From contig JAMOQH010000101.1 in the NCBI GenBank assembly GCA_027064085.1, positions 1 to 41,709 of the forward strand: a stretch of DNA of 41,709 nt. The letters run 5' to 3'. This document shows positions 15,873 through 38,590 of the stretch, in pieces (the first letter of the stretch is position 1; each line of letters starts with the position of its first letter). Both the position numbers and the translations under genes were made by a program. Origin of the DNA: a bacterium (GTDB lineage: Bacteria; UBP6; JAFGXH01). Under the pieces are notes generated by a model. The model was not told the origin of the DNA, made no database searches, and saw only the letters and a program-made list of their open reading frames with translations.

Positions 15873-17852
15873 ATGATATTAACCCGATTTTTAATTGTTT
15901 TTACCATGATTTTATTTTCTTTTCCCATTTTTTCTGCAAAAACACATACTTTTAAAGTAAAAAAACTTTCTAAAAAAATGTTACCTAAGTGGAAAACACA
16001 AAAAGAGAAATTATCAGATAACAGAATTTTAAAAAATACTACCTTTAATGCTTCGCCAACAGGAGAATTATATTTACCTGCTGAATTTGCAAAAATGGAA
16101 GGTATTTTGATTCAACCCGGGCTTTTTGATTCAGAAAGTATCACTTATTACAAAAATATGGTTAAAGCAATACATGATTCTGGAGCAAAACCTTTTATTA
16201 TCACTAAAAATAATTCAGAAAAACAAGCTGTAATAACAAAATTATTACAACCAAATAATATCCCTGATATTGATGTTAAATTTTTAATGTTTAATTATGA
16301 TAGCGTTTGGGCTAGAGATTATGGTCCTTGGGATACATATCTTGAAGGAAATAGAATAACTATTGATATGCGTTACTATTCAGATAGAACAAATGATGAT
16401 AATATTCCTATTGTACTTGCAAATCTTCTTGATGAAGATATTTACAAGGCGAATCTTTTTACCGAAGGTGGAAACTTTATGAGTGATGGATTTGGGTCAT
16501 GTTGGGTAAGTCAAGGGGTTGTAAATTATAATCGTAATTATAATGGTATGAATGAAACACAAGTAAAAAACATTTATAAAAACTATATGGGCTGTAATAC
16601 GGTAACAGTAGTTCCTCCAATTCCAGACGAAGGTACTACTCATATAGATATGTTTTCTAAAGTACTTAATCAAGATACTATTTTAGTAGGCTATTCTAAG
16701 ACAGAGTGGGGAGCTCAACAAAGAGAAATTGACCAGTTGAATGCTGCTGCTGAAGTGTATAGAAATTCACCTAAGGCAGATGGCAACAAATGGAGTATAA
16801 TTAGAATTCCTATGTCATTTGAAACTTATAATGATCCGGATTGGGGAGATTATAGAGTTTACTATACTCACACTAATGCTTTGCTTGTAAATAATTATGC
16901 ATTAATTCCTTTTTATGGCAGAGGAACAGACATGGAAGCCAAAAGGATATATGAACAAGCTTTACCAGAATACACTGTAGTAGGTATTGATTCTAATGCT
17001 TTTATTCCTTATGGTGGGGCAATTCATTGTACAACTATGCAAATACCTGTTAAAACTCAAAATGATTGCGGAAATGGTGTTATTGATGAAGATATGAATG
17101 AAGAATGTGAAGATAACTATCTTAATGGTAAATCATGTAGTGATTTTAATTTTGTAAGTGGTGATTTAAAGTGTAATAGCTGTAAATTTGACTATTCTGA
17201 ATGTGTTTTAGGAGAGGCTCCTTTAAGTGATAAGCAAAGTGGTATTTGTAATGGTAGTAAAAAAGTTTTTTCTTATGATACTTTAACTTGGCTAGAACCT
17301 GATTATGCACAAATTACTAATTATGAAATAATAGAAACCAAGTGTGATGGATTTGATAATGACTGTGATGGTTTTATTGATAATAATTTAACAGCTTTAG
17401 ATAATGTAAACCAAAAAGGTGTTTGTAAAGATAGTAAAATGACTTGTGACGGGGTAAATGGTTGGAAAGAAGATTATAGTCAAATCGCTAATTATGAAGC
17501 AACAGAACAATCATGTGATGGGCTTGATAATGACTGTGATGGAGAAATTGATAATAATTTAACAGCTTTAGATAATGTAAACCAAAAAGGTGTTTGTAAA
17601 GATAGTAAAATGATTTGTGATGGGGTAAATGGTTGGAAAGAAGATTATAGTCAAATTACTAATTATTCTAAAAAAGATAATAATAATGATGGATTGGATA
17701 ATAATTGTGATGGCCAAATAGATGAAAATCAGAAAAATTATAGTGGGAGTAGTTGTAATTATAATAATTCAAATAATGCAGGAGTATTGTTTTTATTTAT
17801 GATTATTTTTATTATTTATCTCCAAAAAAGAAAACATAAAGGAGTAAAATAA
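15873..17852 (+). CDS. Secreted agmatine deiminase/peptidylarginine deiminase family protein with MopE repeats and MYXO-CTERM-like tail
   Basis: A 659-residue protein with a signal peptide (ends near FPIFSA). Residues 60-395 are a PAD_porph/agmatine deiminase domain. The guanidine-group hydrolase residues are present: WARDYGP at 146, EGGNF at 198, His257 in DEGTTHIDM, and nucleophile Cys386 in GGAIHCTTMQ. The enzyme should convert a guanidino group (agmatine or peptidyl-arginine) to a ureido group with release of ammonia. The C-terminal part has a Cys-rich stretch (CGNGVIDEDMNEECED), then MopE-type metal-binding motifs CDGFDNDCDG, CDGLDNDCDG and a degenerate NDGLDNNCDG. It ends with SSCNYNN, a hydrophobic helix and KRKHK, like a MYXO-CTERM sorting tail. 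The combination suggests a surface-retained enzyme. Substrate is unknown. Confidence 0.9.
   Translation: MILTRFLIVFTMILFSFPIFSAKTHTFKVKKLSKKMLPKWKTQKEKLSDNRILKNTTFNASPTGELYLPAEFAKMEGILIQPGLFDSESITYYKNMVKAIHDSGAKPFIITKNNSEKQAVITKLLQPNNIPDIDVKFLMFNYDSVWARDYGPWDTYLEGNRITIDMRYYSDRTNDDNIPIVLANLLDEDIYKANLFTEGGNFMSDGFGSCWVSQGVVNYNRNYNGMNETQVKNIYKNYMGCNTVTVVPPIPDEGTTHIDMFSKVLNQDTILVGYSKTEWGAQQREIDQLNAAAEVYRNSPKADGNKWSIIRIPMSFETYNDPDWGDYRVYYTHTNALLVNNYALIPFYGRGTDMEAKRIYEQALPEYTVVGIDSNAFIPYGGAIHCTTMQIPVKTQNDCGNGVIDEDMNEECEDNYLNGKSCSDFNFVSGDLKCNSCKFDYSECVLGEAPLSDKQSGICNGSKKVFSYDTLTWLEPDYAQITNYEIIETKCDGFDNDCDGFIDNNLTALDNVNQKGVCKDSKMTCDGVNGWKEDYSQIANYEATEQSCDGLDNDCDGEIDNNLTALDNVNQKGVCKDSKMICDGVNGWKEDYSQITNYSKKDNNNDGLDNNCDGQIDENQKNYSGSSCNYNNSNNAGVLFLFMIIFIIYLQKRKHKGVK
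17343..17713 (+). repeat. 171-bp tandem repeat encoding MopE-type motifs
   Basis: Two nearly identical units start at 17343 and 17514, and a partial third begins at about 17685. The period is 171 bp (57 codons). Long stretches differ by only single bases, for example atgacttgtgac against atgatttgtgat, pointing to recent duplication within the gene. Confidence 0.85.
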
Positions 17853-20198: not shown

Positions 20199-22925
20199 TT
20201 ATTCTGGTTCAGTGTACTTAATTGAAAAGCTAAGTATTTTTAGATTTCCTATATCTCCAGCATAATCATCACAGACTTTTAATCTTAATTTTTTATCTCC
20301 TAATGAGTTACCATTAAAGTTATCATAAGTTCTATTGATTAAATCTATATCTGCATCATTTTCAGGGTCATCATCTCTGTCATTATCTAAAATTGAAGAT
20401 GGAGTTGTTGATCTAGTCCAAATTTGAGTATAAGTTTCATCTCCTATAGCTAAATATATATTAATATCAGAAAGGTATTCATGCGTTAATAATAGTTTAT
20501 TCATTTTAAATGATTTTATTGTAGCTGTTGTAGAATCAACTTGATCTGAAAAATCAGCTTCAAAAATTTTACACTCATCATCAAGTAAATCATAATTTTG
20601 ATTGCCTGTATCAAAGAAAACTTCTTGCTTTATAACTTTTAGAGTGTAACTATTTTGATTATCATCCCACCAGCCTCTTACCTTTATAAAGTAATTCCCA
20701 TCAGTTGGGATCTCATAATTTATTACTTCTTGGTCATTTAATCCATAAGTGCCTTTTAGCTGAGTATTGTCATCGTCGTATAGAAAAATATCTAAGTCTC
20801 CATTAGAATTAATTAAATCAAGAGTTATTTTAATGCTATCACCTGCATTAAAATAATATTGATACCAATCGTCATCATAATCACAAATCATTCTTGTATA
20901 AGGAGTATTTAAATTAAATGATTTTGCTTCACTTTTAACATCATCTTGTTCAGCAACTGAATAGCTTTCTTCGTCATCAATACAACCGTTAAAAATATTG
21001 GCTGTAAGAGTATATGGGGAGTCACAATTGGATTTATATCCATATACTTTAATATAGTAGGTTTCTACAGTTTGAGTATTTCTAACATAAACAGTTTCTC
21101 GTCCTGTTGAATAAACTGATGAATCTACTTGTGAAAGATTTCCATCTACCATTTTATATAATTTTACATCAATATCACATTCTAAATCAACATGAGTATA
21201 GTTTACATCAACTTCTAGTCCAGAATTAGCTTCACTTTGTATTTTATACCAATCTTCATCACCTTCACATATAGTTAAATTTGTGTATTGACTATCTCTA
21301 GCATCTGCATCAACTATTAATGATGCAGTATCTGATGAATTATTAGATTCAAATTCATCATCACAAGCGATAGTTCCATTTTCAATACAAGTATTTTCAT
21401 CTTGATGATATCCAGCATTACAATTCCATGCACAATCATCAGGAAGTTCCCAACCACTACCGTCTGTATATGTAACTTCTACATCAACATTAACAGTAGT
21501 AGCATTTATTGGTGTAACATCATGGCAAGGAACTGTTTTGGTATTACTTACACATTGATTATTTTCTTCATGTTCGTTATCTGAACAATTAAGCCCATCT
21601 TCAATACAAGTATTTCCATCTTTGTGATATCCATCATTACACCCCCATGTACAATCTTCTGGATTGCTCCAACCAAGTCCTTCTGTATAGATTATTTCAA
21701 CATTGGAGTCTACTTTTGTTGCATTATTAGGTGTAACATCATTACAAGCTACCATTTTAGTATTACTTAAACATTCATTTGATTCTTTATGAAAATTTGT
21801 ATTACAATTCCAATTACATGCATTAGGAATAGTCCAACCAGAGCCTTCTGTATAAGTTATTTCAACTTGAGAATTTATTTTAGTTGCGTGATTTGGAATA
21901 TTGCTATCATCACAATCAACTTGTTTTGTGTTTGAAGCACATGAATTTCCTTCTTTATGAAAAGTAGCATTACAATTCCATAAACAATCTGCTGGAATAG
22001 TCCAACCTGCTCCTTGATTATATGTAATTTCAACTTGAGCTATTACTGTTGTTGCGTGTTCAGGAGTGTTTTCATTGCAATCAACCATTTTGGTATTATT
22101 TACACAAACGCCATTTTCTTCATGTTTACCTATTTCACATGTAAGTTCATTTTTTTCACATGATTGTCCGTCATTGCTCTTGTGAAAACCTTCATTACAG
22201 TTCCAAGCACAATCTTTAGGAATGCTCCAACCACTGTCACTTGTATATGTGATTTCTGTTTGTGTTTCTGTTTGTGTTGCATTTTCAGGAGTAACATCAT
22301 TGCAATCAACTATTTTGCTATTTGAAACACAGGTTTCAGATTCTTTATGAAAGCCACTGTCGCATAGGCAAATTCCCGCATCACAAGAAGAATTATTTCC
22401 ACAATTTATGTTTGCACAGGGGTCAACTTCACTACTAACACATTCTTCATTATCATTTTTACTGAATCCTTCATCACATTCTATTTCACAATATGGAATA
22501 GATTGCCATGAATTATTTTCAAATTTAATTTCAACATCTTTAACTATTTCATGACTATCTTTTGGAAGATTTGGATTGTTTTGGCAGGAAACTGTTTTTA
22601 TACTAATTACACATTCTCCATTCTCATCATGATAGTTATCATCACATAAGCATATCGGGAAATTATTATCATTATTACAAATTGTTCTGTGTTCTGTGTT
22701 GCAAGGATTGGGATTACATGGATTATTTGTTTCTGCTTTTTTTATACAAATTCCATATTTATCTTTGTAGCCCTCATCACATAAACACTTATAAGTGCTT
22801 CCATTTGGTTTACAGATAGTTCTATGAGCATCTTTGCAAGGATCTCCATTACACAAGCTATCCGCACTTGGGTTGGCACATGAGTAAATAAAAAGACTTA
22901 AAATTAAAAATAATAATTTATACAT
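20199..22925 (-). CDS. Large surface lipoprotein: EGF-like, six Cys-rich repeats, two PPC domains and a P-domain
   Basis: A 908-residue protein with a lipobox (LFIYSC, Cys16). Two EGF-like modules (about 20-110) come first (ICKPNGSTYKCLCDEGY, ICNNDNNFPICLCDDNY), with a third near residue 170. Six copies of a repeat of about 60-70 residues follow, with the pattern VDC(N/D)D-TP-NAT ... EITYTEGSGWTIP--C-WNCN-G-HK. Residues 535-655 and 660-770 are PPC (pre-peptidase C-terminal) domains (DDDWYQYYFNAGDSI, NGDLDIFLYDDD, GNYFIKVRGW). The last 130 residues resemble a proprotein-convertase P-domain (LLLTHEYLSDINIYLA, LRLKVCDDYAGDIGNL). No protease domain is present, so this looks like an adhesive or binding surface protein. 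It follows the VWA lipoprotein gene. Confidence 0.87.
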   Translation of the reverse strand: MYKLLFLILSLFIYSCANPSADSLCNGDPCKDAHRTICKPNGSTYKCLCDEGYKDKYGICIKKAETNNPCNPNPCNTEHRTICNNDNNFPICLCDDNYHDENGECVISIKTVSCQNNPNLPKDSHEIVKDVEIKFENNSWQSIPYCEIECDEGFSKNDNEECVSSEVDPCANINCGNNSSCDAGICLCDSGFHKESETCVSNSKIVDCNDVTPENATQTETQTEITYTSDSGWSIPKDCAWNCNEGFHKSNDGQSCEKNELTCEIGKHEENGVCVNNTKMVDCNENTPEHATTVIAQVEITYNQGAGWTIPADCLWNCNATFHKEGNSCASNTKQVDCDDSNIPNHATKINSQVEITYTEGSGWTIPNACNWNCNTNFHKESNECLSNTKMVACNDVTPNNATKVDSNVEIIYTEGLGWSNPEDCTWGCNDGYHKDGNTCIEDGLNCSDNEHEENNQCVSNTKTVPCHDVTPINATTVNVDVEVTYTDGSGWELPDDCAWNCNAGYHQDENTCIENGTIACDDEFESNNSSDTASLIVDADARDSQYTNLTICEGDEDWYKIQSEANSGLEVDVNYTHVDLECDIDVKLYKMVDGNLSQVDSSVYSTGRETVYVRNTQTVETYYIKVYGYKSNCDSPYTLTANIFNGCIDDEESYSVAEQDDVKSEAKSFNLNTPYTRMICDYDDDWYQYYFNAGDSIKITLDLINSNGDLDIFLYDDDNTQLKGTYGLNDQEVINYEIPTDGNYFIKVRGWWDDNQNSYTLKVIKQEVFFDTGNQNYDLLDDECKIFEADFSDQVDSTTATIKSFKMNKLLLTHEYLSDINIYLAIGDETYTQIWTRSTTPSSILDNDRDDDPENDADIDLINRTYDNFNGNSLGDKKLRLKVCDDYAGDIGNLKILSFSIKYTEPE

Positions 22926-28639: not shown

Positions 28640-29353
28640 CTATTTAAGTCTATATACCATAGGAATTTTAATATTCCAACTAATTCTTTTTAGTTCATTT
28701 GGTATTTTCTTAAATCTTTTTATATTTTTTATTGTTTTTATGGCTGCTTTATCTAGTATTTTACTCCCACTTGACTTTTCTATATTTATTTTAGTAATTA
28801 TTCCATCCTTATTTATTGTGATAGATACATATATTATACCTTGTTTTTTTAACCTTCTAGCTCTTCTTGGATATTTTATATTGTTTTTTATTATTCTTCT
28901 TATATAAATTAAATAATTTTTTTCTATTTCTTTAGTTTCCACTTCTTTATTTTCTACTTCTTTAGTTTCCACTTCTTTATTTTCTACTTCTTTATTTTCT
29001 ACTTCTTTAGTTTCTATTTCTTTAGTTTCTATTTCTTTAGTTTCTACTTCTTTAGTTTCTACTTCTTTAGTTTCTACTTCTTTAGTTTCTACTTCTTTAG
29101 TTTTTTTTCTTTTTATTTTTTTATTGATATTTTTTTTATATTTATGAGTTCTAATTATTTTATTATTATTTTCAAGTATTATTTTTTTATTTTTAGGTTT
29201 AACTATTTTAGACTCTAGTAGATTTATTGTGATTTTTTGTGTATTAGATTTTGTTTTAGGAGCTTTTTTTATATCAATTTTTATGTTAAATAATACAACA
29301 TGAAATGTTGTAACCAAAAAGAATATAAGAAAAAATATAAATTTTTCTGTCAT
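28640..29353 (-). CDS. tonB: TonB-type energy transducer with a pentapeptide repeat linker
   Basis: A 237-residue protein with one N-terminal transmembrane helix (FIFFLIFFLVTTFHVVLF), a basic stretch, a periplasmic linker made of twelve 5-residue repeats (residues 86-145), and a C-terminal TonB domain (about 146-237: IKYPRRARRLKKQGIIYVSI, SSGSKILDKAAIKTIK). TonB couples the ExbB/ExbD motor to outer-membrane receptors; no TonB-dependent receptor is in the window. The usual Pro-Lys/Pro-Glu spacer is replaced by an acidic-basic KEVET-type repeat. The start overlaps the stop of the MtnA-like gene (ATGA). Confidence 0.9.
   Translation of the reverse strand: MTEKFIFFLIFFLVTTFHVVLFNIKIDIKKAPKTKSNTQKITINLLESKIVKPKNKKIILENNNKIIRTHKYKKNINKKIKRKKTKEVETKEVETKEVETKEVETKEIETKEIETKEVENKEVENKEVETKEVENKEVETKEIEKNYLIYIRRIIKNNIKYPRRARRLKKQGIIYVSITINKDGIITKINIEKSSGSKILDKAAIKTIKNIKRFKKIPNELKRISWNIKIPMVYRLK
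28919..29098 (-). repeat. 15-bp tandem repeat in tonB (12 units)
   Basis: Twelve consecutive in-frame 15-bp units encode KEVET, KEIET, KEVEN or KEIEK. The units differ by single bases. It is a likely site of copy-number change that would alter the reach of the TonB linker. Confidence 0.92.
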
Positions 29354-35530: not shown

Positions 35531-35554
35531 GGAAAATATTATTTGGGAGTACAA

Positions 35555-36415
35555 ATGAAAATACTTGTAAGTTTACTATTAGTTTTTATGGTTTCATGTA
35601 GTGGTGGTAGTACATCAAATAAAGATATTACATATAAAACCAATAGTAAGGATAAGACGGTGTCTTATCCTACTAAAAATACAAATGGAGAGAAAAAAAA
35701 TAAAAAATATAAGAAAAAACATAAGAAATCTTATTACTCAAGAGAAGATAATCGTTTTGTAGAAATTAAAGATAGACAAGATGTAAGAGTAGCTCCAAAT
35801 TCTAAAGTTGAAGACTATTTAAAGCCATATAGAGCAAGTTTAAAAAAGAAAACAGATGAAGTTATTGCAAAACTTAAAATTGATTTAACGAAAAAGGGCT
35901 ATAGTAATTCATTAGGTAGATTCGCTTCACAAATCATACTTGAGAAAGCAAGAAAATATTCAAAATTACATGTGGATTTTGCTCTTTTAAATAATGGAGG
36001 TCTAAGAAAACCTTTATATAAAGGAGATATTAAAATTAAGGATATTTATGAATTAATGCCTTTTGATAATTACATTGTTGTTGTTTCTGTAAAAGGAAAT
36101 GAAGTGAAAAAAATGTGTGGAGAAATAATACATCATCATGGTTTGCCTATGGCGGGTATTGCAATTCGTGCAGGAGAAACAGATGATAAATACTGTAGAG
36201 TTAATGGAAAAGATATAGATGAGAAAAAAGATTATTTAATTGCAACTATCAATTATTTATATAATGTGGGTGAGGGTGTTCCTTCTTTAAAGCATGGAAA
36301 ACTTGTTAAAAATATGACTAACCACTTATTTAGAGATGCAATTATTGAATATGTAAAAGAAAAGAAAGTGATAGATAAAATTATACCAGTTAACTATTCA
36401 TATCCAAGAAAATAA
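35555..36415 (+). CDS. Lipoprotein with 5'-nucleotidase C-terminal (substrate-binding) domain
   Basis: The start is ATG 35555, after TTGGGAG; a TTG 12 bp upstream overlaps the SD and is rejected. The 286-residue product has a lipobox (VFMVSC, Cys15), a low-complexity Lys/Asn/Ser linker to about residue 65, then a 5_nucleotid_C domain: NSLGRFASQIILEKARKYSK, DFALLNNGGLRKPLYKGDI, IYELMPFDNYIVVVSVKG. The NNGGLR motif binds substrate phosphate or ribose in whole 5'-nucleotidases. The catalytic half is the next gene, so the two domains are in reversed order on separate proteins. A 10-bp-stem palindrome (35645-35674) lies in frame in the linker (encoding DKTVSYP). Confidence 0.87.
   Translation: MKILVSLLLVFMVSCSGGSTSNKDITYKTNSKDKTVSYPTKNTNGEKKNKKYKKKHKKSYYSREDNRFVEIKDRQDVRVAPNSKVEDYLKPYRASLKKKTDEVIAKLKIDLTKKGYSNSLGRFASQIILEKARKYSKLHVDFALLNNGGLRKPLYKGDIKIKDIYELMPFDNYIVVVSVKGNEVKKMCGEIIHHHGLPMAGIAIRAGETDDKYCRVNGKDIDEKKDYLIATINYLYNVGEGVPSLKHGKLVKNMTNHLFRDAIIEYVKEKKVIDKIIPVNYSYPRK
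35645..35674 (+). repeat. In-frame palindromic element in a coding sequence
   Basis: AGGATAAGAC (35649-35658) and GTCTTATCCT (35662-35671) are a perfect 10-bp inverted repeat with loop GGT. The match extends outward to AGT/ACT with one bulged A. It lies in the disordered linker just after the lipoprotein signal and keeps the frame. Confidence 0.85.
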
Positions 36416-36428
36416 TTAGGAGCTATGT

Positions 36429-37316
36429 ATGAAAAGAAGAGATTTTATAAAAAAGACAGTTATAGCTGGTGGATTATTAGCTTCAAGTAACTTATTAGCA
36501 AGTGAAAAGCCTAAAAATTCAACACTAACTATTTTGCATACTAATGATACTCATTCAAGGCTTGACCCATTTCCTAAAGGCAGTGGTTATCGTTCGGATA
36601 TGGGAGGAGTATCAAGAAGGGCAACACTCGTAAATCTTTTAAGAAAAAAGTATCCTAATTCTCTATTACTTGATGCAGGAGATGTTTTTCAGGGTACTCC
36701 ATATTTTAATTTTTATGAAGGACGCTTAGAATACGAAACTATGAGTATGATAGGTTATGATTACGGAACATTAGGAAATCATGACTTTGATTTAGGAACA
36801 GAAAAGCTACTTAAAGCTATGGATTTTTTAAATTTCAAATTAATTAACTCTAACTATCATTCTGATATACCAAAATTTAAGAAATTCGTTTTAGAAAATG
36901 AAATTATTGAAAGACAGGGGGTTAAAATTGGTTTATTTGGTTTAGGAGTAAGTTTTAAAGGTCTTGTTTCTTCTGAATCACATAAAGGAATCAAAGAACT
37001 TGATAGATATGATGTTGCCACTAAGCAAATTAAATATTTAAAAGAAGAGAAAAAAGTTGATTTTGTGATTTTAATCTCACATTTAGGTGTTGATGATGAT
37101 GAAAAATTTGCTAAAAAAATAAATGGAGTTGATTTAATAGTTGGAGGGCATAGCCATACAAAAATAAGTAAGCCATTAGTTGTTAATGATACTTTAATTC
37201 TTCAGGCTGCATCTAGTGGTATATTTTTAGGTAAATTAGACTTGAATTTTGAAAATAAAAAGTTAAAATCTTATGATTATGAGCTGATTCCAGTAAAAGA
37301 AGATACAAAAGTATGA
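36429..37316 (+). CDS. Tat-exported 5'-nucleotidase/metallophosphatase catalytic subunit
   Basis: A 295-residue protein whose N-terminus MKRRDFIKKTVIAGG is a twin-arginine signal, so it is exported folded. The calcineurin-like metallophosphatase domain carries all metal-site motifs: LHTNDTHSR, LLDAGDVFQGTP, LGNHDFDLG, ISHLGVDDD and VGGHSHTKI. This is the N-terminal half of UshA/YchR-type 5'-nucleotidases, which hydrolyse periplasmic nucleotides. It lacks the C-terminal substrate domain, which is encoded by the preceding lipoprotein gene 13 bp upstream. ATG 36429 is used, 6 bp after TAGGAG. Tat export of this half and Sec/lipoprotein export of the other is inferred from the signals. The stop overlaps purM (ATGA). 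Confidence 0.92.
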   Translation: MKRRDFIKKTVIAGGLLASSNLLASEKPKNSTLTILHTNDTHSRLDPFPKGSGYRSDMGGVSRRATLVNLLRKKYPNSLLLDAGDVFQGTPYFNFYEGRLEYETMSMIGYDYGTLGNHDFDLGTEKLLKAMDFLNFKLINSNYHSDIPKFKKFVLENEIIERQGVKIGLFGLGVSFKGLVSSESHKGIKELDRYDVATKQIKYLKEEKKVDFVILISHLGVDDDEKFAKKINGVDLIVGGHSHTKISKPLVVNDTLILQAASSGIFLGKLDLNFENKKLKSYDYELIPVKEDTKV

Positions 37317-38590
37317 AAAAACAAAGTGGAATAGATATTTCATTAAATGATAAAGCTAGTAAAATCGCTTTTAATTATGCAAAAAAGAGTTTTAAAAATA
37401 TAAAAGATGTAAAATCAGTTACAAAAGATGGTGATTTCAGCGGTGGTTTTATATGTAGGGGCGAACCTCTGTGTTCGCCCTATGGTAATGATAATATAAA
37501 TATTTCTATAGCATCAGATGGAATAGGGACAAAAGTTGAAATTGCAGAAAGGTTAAATAAATATGATAGTTTGGGTTATGATTTATTGGCAATGGTTTGT
37601 GATGATTTAATCTCCAATTTTTATGAACCAAAATTTATATCAAATATTTTAGATATTGATTATATTGATTTAAACATAGTTAATGAGTTAATGCAAGGCC
37701 TTAATAAGGCTGCAAAAGAAAGTAATGTAATAATATCAGGTGGAGAAATTGCCGAATTGGGGAATCGTATTAACGGTTATGGTAAATCCATGCATTTTAA
37801 TTGGGGTGCAACCGCAATAGGTTTTAAAATGAAATCCTGTAGAGACGACGGCACTGCCTCGTCTCTGAATCAAAAAAACGCCTCGTCTCTGAATCAAAAA
37901 AATGCCTCGTCTCTGAATCAAAAAAACGCCTCATTCCTGAAGCAAGAAGATAATGAAAATGATGTGAGTCAAGGCAATGCCTTGACTGTACGAAAGCAGG
38001 TATTTGAAAAAGATAATAAAGATGATGTGAGTCAAGGCAATGCCTTGACTGTACGAAAGCAGGTATTTGAAGAAGATAATAAAGATAATGTGAGTCAAGG
38101 CAATGCCTTGACTGTACGAGTGGGAGATAAAGTTTATGCTCTTAAATCCAATGGATTTCGGAGCAATGGATTTTCTTTGGCAAGAAAAATTCTATATGAT
38201 AATTATGGTGATAATTGGCATAATTTTAAATTCAATAAATATGAAAGCTGGGGGAGTATATTATTAAAACCATCAAAAATTTATACTCCTATTATTAAAA
38301 AAATAATAAAAAACGGTGTTCTGATAAAAAAAATAGCACATATCACTGGTGGTGGCTTCATAAATAATACTAATAGAATTTTACCTGATAATTTAAAAAT
38401 AAATATTACTAATCCAATAAGTACACCTGAATATTTTAAAAAATTAATAAATTTAGGTAATATTTCCCAAAAGCAAGCAGAATTAACATGGAATATGGGT
38501 TATGGTATGGTAATAATCACAAAAGAAGCTATAGGCACATCAATAATAGATTGGCCAATGCAATATATTGGGGAAATAATAGAAAAATGA
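37313..38590 (+). CDS. purM: Phosphoribosylformylglycinamidine cyclo-ligase with in-frame palindromic inserts
   Basis: A 425-residue AIR synthetase; typical PurM is about 340. It uses ATP to close the imidazole ring, making AIR from FGAM in purine synthesis. Conserved parts: ISIASDGIGTKVEIAERL, GYDLLAMVCDDLI, VIISGGEIAELG, LKSNGFRSNGFSLARKIL, IAHITGGGFINNTNRILPD and TWNMGYGMVII. Two foreign-looking insertions keep the frame: residues 48-57 (palindrome at 37456-37482) and about 177-269, made of a palindrome, three ASSLNQKN units and 21-residue repeats. Both sit where PurM has surface loops, so the enzyme may still fold. Start overlaps the nucleotidase stop; purL overlaps its stop (ATGA). Confidence 0.93.
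   Translation: MKKQSGIDISLNDKASKIAFNYAKKSFKNIKDVKSVTKDGDFSGGFICRGEPLCSPYGNDNINISIASDGIGTKVEIAERLNKYDSLGYDLLAMVCDDLISNFYEPKFISNILDIDYIDLNIVNELMQGLNKAAKESNVIISGGEIAELGNRINGYGKSMHFNWGATAIGFKMKSCRDDGTASSLNQKNASSLNQKNASSLNQKNASFLKQEDNENDVSQGNALTVRKQVFEKDNKDDVSQGNALTVRKQVFEEDNKDNVSQGNALTVRVGDKVYALKSNGFRSNGFSLARKILYDNYGDNWHNFKFNKYESWGSILLKPSKIYTPIIKKIIKNGVLIKKIAHITGGGFINNTNRILPDNLKINITNPISTPEYFKKLINLGNISQKQAELTWNMGYGMVIITKEAIGTSIIDWPMQYIGEIIEK
37456..37482 (+). repeat. In-frame palindromic element A in purM
   Basis: GGGCGAAC and GTTCGCCC form an 8-bp stem around CTCTGT, flanked by TA on both sides with one bulged G. It is markedly richer in G+C than the surrounding gene. It encodes RGEPLCSPY within a PurM N-terminal loop. 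Confidence 0.88.
37841..37866 (+). repeat. In-frame palindromic element B in purM
   Basis: AGAGACGA (37841-37848) and TCGTCTCT (37859-37866) pair as an 8-bp stem, with an inner GGC/GCC stem around ACT and one bulged C. It begins the large second insert. Confidence 0.87.
37856..37951 (+). repeat. 24-bp tandem repeats in purM
   Basis: Three nearly identical 24-bp units (starting 37856, 37880, 37904) and one decayed unit (37928-37951) encode ASSLNQKN. Each unit includes the right arm (TCGTCTCT) of element B, so the array seems to have grown from that palindrome. Confidence 0.9.
37961..38119 (+). repeat. 63-bp tandem repeats carrying palindromic element C in purM
   Basis: Units begin at 37961 and 38024, with a partial third from 38087. 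Each contains a perfect 9-bp inverted repeat (AGTCAAGGC, loop AAT, GCCTTGACT) at 37967-37987, 38030-38050 and 38093-38113. The period is 21 codons, so the frame is kept. Confidence 0.92.

Follow-up and report, generated by a model that had tools for sequence, protein, structure and literature searches.

Short hairpins with GTAN feet are dispersed in frame through about 50 genes of the genome analysed here, among them purM, which has two inserts made from such hairpins and from tandem arrays of their parts. The best explanation, which we regard as likely, is insertion of REP elements by a RAYT-type transposase, followed by tandem growth and by filtering for the reading frame and for a harmless hydrophilic linker. 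The window, 41,709 nucleotides long, is one complete contig, C101, from a draft genome of 3.65 Mb in 195 contigs. Its features that matter for this reading are:

37313–38590, plus strand: purM (phosphoribosylformylglycinamidine cyclo-ligase), 425 amino acids including both inserts
37455–37480, plus strand: element A, REP-like hairpin GTAGGGGCGAACCTCTGTGTTCGCCC with a GTAG foot, in frame as CRGEPLCSP; the first (N-terminal) insert
37839–37865, plus strand: element B, REP-like hairpin GTAGAGACGACGGCACTGCCTCGTCTC with a GTAG foot, sense, reading CRDDGTASSL; left end of the second insert
37856–37932, plus strand: 24-bp tandem array, 3.2 copies, 96% match, unit GCCTCGTCTCTGAATCAAAAAAAC
37947–38119, plus strand: 63-bp tandem array, 2.7 copies, 96% match, one palindrome C per unit; right end of the second insert
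37963–37991, minus strand: element C, copy 1, with its GTAC foot on the minus strand
38026–38054, minus strand: element C, copy 2, within the 63-bp array
38089–38117, minus strand: element C, copy 3, within the 63-bp array
35646–35670, plus strand: further family member GTAAGGATAAGACGGTGTCTTATCC, sense and in the common phase, reading SKDKTVSYP, in the ORF at 35543–36415

The purM reading frame is open throughout, a domain search matches both AIRS domains, solved PurM structures match the protein with an E-value of 3e-39, and the motifs DGIGTK, GGEIAE, SNGFSLARK and HITGGG are all present in the translation. A search of the genome for a second PurM found none, which leaves this ORF as the sole copy found. 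Element A adds about 7 residues to an N-terminal PurM loop; it is the first of two inserts that a sequence-only reading of this DNA had noticed, and it is real. The same reading had described the second insert as some 90 residues built from palindromes beginning at 37841, and this was confirmed, with element B starting two bases earlier at 37839. The insert covers residues ~175–265 and lies between AIGFK and VGDKVYALKSNG, where the loop of same-family PurMs is only some 10 residues long; a short loop was replaced, as claimed, with a net gain of about 83 residues. Its layout, palindrome B followed by 24-bp units built from B's right arm (GCCTCGTCTC) plus a tail and then by 63-bp units with palindrome C, was likewise recovered in both arrays. 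Palindrome C (AGTCAAGGCAATGCCTTGACT) lies at 37967, 38030 and 38093, three occurrences versus none in 100 dinucleotide shuffles.

Orthologue alignment and structure modelling had both been proposed as checks on this insert. In the alignment, 24 PurM relatives lack the second insert, and no shared, conserved version of it was found among them. Two of these relatives come from genomes of the same family (G001 and G002), with PurMs of 45–52% identity and the ten-residue loop at the site, and this absence at the family level points to an insertion event. The AlphaFold model, built with 39 sequences, has a mean pLDDT of 75; values in the core are mostly about 90 or higher and fall below 50 for residues 176–264 and, at element A, for residues 51–59. 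Compared with crystal structures by Foldseek, the model matches PurM with a best E-value of 1e-25 and a TM-score on the target of up to 0.87. Residues 176–264 thus probably form a disordered, floppy stretch on an intact PurM fold and, because fold and conserved motifs are intact, the enzyme is probably still functional.

The reading of the purM insert as insertion followed by growth is well supported because the same pattern recurs genome-wide. Here the sequence-only reading was incomplete: it had picked out the purM inserts and overlooked both a dispersed REP-like family and RAYT genes in the genome. A, B and C are members of one family of hairpins with GTAN feet that is found across the genome and resembles the REP elements of REP-associated tyrosine transposases (RAYTs). 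On the minus strand, C reads GTACAGTCAAGGCATTGCCTTGACTC, a diverged form of B (GTAGAGACGAGGCATTGCCTCGTCTC), and eleven copies of B and C align with compensatory changes in the stem. The elements measure 25–30 bp and their stems covary. With a covariance model, R1, this genome yields 59 matches at E<=0.01, whereas each of 27 relatives from the phylum yields between 0 and 9; a degenerate pattern matches 118 times when both strands are counted, and its reversed control once. Pattern and model searches, with subsequent retrieval of the matched places, yielded a catalogue of 126 elements, 103 of them in 58 ORFs of at least 100 amino acids and 23 outside; it was seeded largely with in-gene copies, which biases the in-gene fraction and the phase count given below upwards.

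Pairing in the stem is maintained by compensatory changes. Among 45 distinct in-gene copies, taken as one per gene, 92.8% of stem positions are paired and 55 cells are compensatory versus 20 in shuffles, none of 500 shuffles reaching as high; the signal is gone when the partner strand is slid along. The covariation at positions 8, 9, 21 and 22 was not built in by the search, because the pattern left each of them free between two bases. A foot of GTAG is found on A, B and the double-foot copies, and the majority of in-gene copies have GTAA, GTAC or GTAT. There are five double-foot REPs (GTAG...CTAC) in the genome, and they are intergenic. Inverted B...C composites occur in six ORFs, those of purM, a QTMAN-like glycosyltransferase, a radical SAM protein, a RAYT and two related phosphoesterases; elsewhere in genes the elements mostly occur singly or in direct arrays. 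DNA-uptake sequences were considered as the identity of the elements and dropped; these are short non-palindromic words. The further member in the window, at 35646–35670, lies in an ORF for a 5'-nucleotidase C-terminal domain, close to its N-terminus. This domain (35543–36415) and a metallophosphatase domain (36429–37316) form separate ORFs directly upstream of purM, in reverse of the usual domain order.

The 58 host ORFs count as about 50 genes because C24/C72 and C56/C116 are apparently genes split over two contigs and C174/C141 are apparently paralogs. Besides PurM, the hosts include DnaX, TilS, CheA, YidC, a secretin, an ABC-F protein, a NuoI-like ferredoxin, a GltD-like protein, an amidase, protein kinases, the radical SAM protein, the QTMAN-like glycosyltransferase and three RAYT-type transposases, together with an NFACT protein whose element is a weak match. 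Where the host has a recognisable domain, the element lies outside all Pfam domains in 16 of 18 cases (7.8 expected). The first element is in sense orientation with one codon phase in 52 of the 58 ORFs (p about 4e-25 against four usable frames), and model R1 taken alone puts 39 of 57 in-gene elements in this phase. Its codons, nGT ANR GAY RAG, encode a peptide of the form [SRC][KR]D[EK]A.... Across 66 distinct elements the used frame is the most hydrophilic, with a mean Kyte-Doolittle value of -1.38; four of the other frames are open in between 34 and 54 elements, and one sense frame is open in just 3. Right ends of the C type lie antisense and keep to one further phase (QGNALTVR). Hydrophilicity explains the strand bias only in part, since one antisense frame, too, is frequently open and hydrophilic; the bias exceeds what peptide hydrophilicity alone would predict and may have its source in the insertion mechanism or in spread from gene to gene. 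As to the off-phase ORFs, two on C144, one at a contig edge (C141:3-893) and one on C112 may be spurious or edge ORFs, and two genes on C80 are either genuine off-phase cases or weak matches.

All 29 in-gene array periods, from 9 to 189 bp, are divisible by three, versus 3 of 7 intergenic ones, and an array touches an element in 27 of the 58 host ORFs, where 2.9% would be expected at random places of the same ORFs. Often one arm with its neighbouring sequence is reused as the array unit, as in purM and on C69, C138 and C8. These statistics are the clearest support for the slippage idea and extend it beyond purM; a literature search on slippage at palindromes found nothing. The proposal of palindrome insertion followed by tandem growth in threes is therefore well supported. 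Its companion claim, that selection acted only to keep the frame, is too weak: orientation and codon phase are near-fixed, stem pairing is compensated, and the elements sit at linker sites.

Several further arrays were noted. In the window, ORFs contain arrays at 28921–29103 (15 bp x 12), 17310–17713 (171 bp x 2.4) and 21376–21779 (219 bp x 1.8), with periods that are all multiples of three. An intergenic block (L083, C189:3793-4279) alternates GTAGGGATAAGGCGTTGCCTTATCC hairpins with GATAAATTTAATCCGCCC units at a period of 70 bp, not a multiple of three. A CRISPR-like array was considered and dropped; the units are coding hairpins and there are no variable spacers. Contig ends fall inside coding arrays at L085/L086 (C24, C72) and L097/L101 (C56, C116), where single genes are apparently split, and because contigs end within coding arrays the draft probably underestimates the true repeat numbers.

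Candidate transposases are encoded in the same genome. Three RAYT-like ORFs (C182:61497, C185:19063 and C192:20069) have elements and arrays between their HUH and Tyr motifs, and a fourth (C182:24609) is without elements. They match the NCBIfam model NF047646 with E-values of 5e-15 to 5e-19 (best 4.7e-19) for the three insert-bearing ORFs and 5.8e-21 for the insert-free one, all scoring below the curated cut-off of 80 bits. NHIH or DHIH is present, WH stands where WQ is expected, and YIINNP occurs in two of the three insert-bearing RAYTs. Inspection by eye of about 350-400 bp on either side of the four genes revealed no flanking REPs.

We picture the process in three steps. A RAYT of the HUH/tyrosine, subclass 2.4 type would insert a single-stranded REP or REP pair; in purM, an inverted REP-like pair, B on the left and C on the right with GTA(G/C) feet pointing outward, would have inserted into the loop joining the two PurM domains. 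The hairpin or its arms would then provoke slippage or recombination, yielding the units of 9 to 189 bp; growth itself is evident, and in purM parts of the insert would subsequently have been amplified in tandem in this way. Selection would finally purge frame breaks, stops, hydrophobic readings and insertions into folded domains, a cause suggested by the observed pattern, and the survivors would be in-frame, hydrophilic, disordered linker sequences that the host presumably tolerates. Several points count against this reading: most in-gene feet are not GTAG; the pairing of RAYTs with these elements is putative, no flanking REP pair having been seen in the stretches read; the evidence for insertion is an absence at the family level; and the excess strand bias and the seeding of the catalogue, both described above, also weigh against it.

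The foot difference also enters the principal rival account, in which spread within genes needs no transposase and proceeds by gene conversion or template switching among copies already there, so that orientation and phase are inherited and not reselected. This would account directly for the agreement of 52 of the 58 ORFs in orientation and phase, and it suits the common GTAA foot of most in-gene copies, which differs from the GTAG of intergenic double-foot copies. We nevertheless judge it unlikely, as no shared homology was seen in the host flanks beyond the element and a short tail, RAYT genes exist in the genome and themselves carry elements, and a few elements lie in other phases or outside genes.

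A different view of the same regularities is that the encoded peptide is useful, as a solubilising or spacing linker or as an interaction site, and that selection on it keeps both insert and frame. The dominance of one hydrophilic reading, the location of inserts in linkers, and the several cell-envelope or multidomain proteins among the hosts would fit such a role. Set against them are the unrelated functions of the hosts, the PurMs of the sister genus, which work without the insert, and the unrelated peptide encoded by C-type ends; moreover, residues covary with stem pairing (D-E-A..R-P vs D-K-A..Y-P), indicating that DNA pairing is conserved and not the peptide, and we think this view very improbable. 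Least credible of all is that the arrays are assembly or polymerase artefacts. The draft does consist of 195 contigs, several of them ending inside arrays, yet copies differ within arrays, every in-gene array keeps the frame, which is unexpected of artefacts, and single elements are present in dozens of genes. Insertion by a RAYT-type transposase with growth and filtering thus remains the reading we prefer.

Relatives of this system have been described. GTAG-tagged intragenic REPs lie in frame in unrelated genes, where they are thought to be tolerated in loops, and their clusters encode up to 82 amino acids, the surveyed REPs being mostly intergenic (Di Nocera et al. 2013, PMC3733652). The present elements share the short palindromes, the in-frame position within unrelated genes and, on A, B and the double-foot copies, the GTAG foot. 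They differ from that survey in having 103 of the 126 catalogued copies within ORFs, in a catalogue seeded largely in genes, and in the single phase of 52 of 58 ORFs; as far as we found, that paper mentions neither a fixed phase nor a period rule for intragenic REPs. Rickettsia palindromic elements (RPEs) are selfish palindromes, also in frame in many unrelated protein genes (Ogata et al. 2000, 2002, summarised in PMC10969869). They are about 150 bp in size (PMC10969869) or, in the case of RPE-4 and RPE-6, have a CGTC foot (PMC3733652), whereas our elements are 25-30 bp GTAN-foot hairpins that grow by tandem repetition and have neither this size nor this foot. REPINs consist of two inverse REPs with a spacer and are extragenic, only 14 of 1,067 core 16-mers overlapping genes in SBW25 (Bertels and Rainey 2011, PMC3116915); the B...C composites resemble them in having an inverse pair with spacer, but all six found lie in ORFs and are coding.

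Intragenic in-frame REPs (PMC3733652), RPEs (PMC10969869) and REPs within RAYT genes (PMC6006769) have all been described before, so the purM insert taken alone is a large new example. New are the scale, the majority of known copies residing in about 50 genes, the phase lock and the three-base period rule, for which we found no prior description. Tentatively, the REP population may have adapted to genes, one strand and phase encoding a harmless hydrophilic linker while the DNA hairpin is kept; we put this forward as a possibility that we somewhat doubt. If it were true, most of the population would reside in coding sequence and conserved proteins would keep lengthening. Independently of this possibility, small mobile hairpins are a steady source of new protein sequence in this genome, with in-frame linkers derived from them in about 50 genes, dnaX, tilS, yidC, cheA and purM included. 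As the phase is near-fixed and every in-gene period is divisible by three, a single genome offers a readable record of the insertions and expansions that selection let through, and the long-standing question of how selfish palindromes persist inside genes becomes testable.

The closest parallel is the TnpA-REP (RAYT) subclass 2.4, with in-frame REPs in a length-variable region between HUH and Y, the motifs NH[IFV]H, WQ and YIxNNP, long and double-foot REPs (GTAG...CTAC), and REPs on the flanks of the transposase gene (Quentin et al. 2018, PMC6006769). The family described here appears to work like this system, sharing the HUH/Tyr transposase with in-frame REPs between HUH and Y and having five double-foot REPs. 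Unlike subclass 2.4, its REPs also occur in some 50 further genes, where GTAA feet prevail and there are extensive arrays in multiples of three bases; we do not class it as a full member because of WH in place of WQ, the sub-cut-off NF047646 scores and the lack of visible flanking REPs. In the sister genus, two RAYT-like genes (L052/L201 on C208 of G002, and L200 on C338 of G001) have insertions rich in repeats immediately behind the HUH motif; the one in the G002 gene holds a matching hairpin, AGAGACAGGGCATGCCCTGTCTCT.
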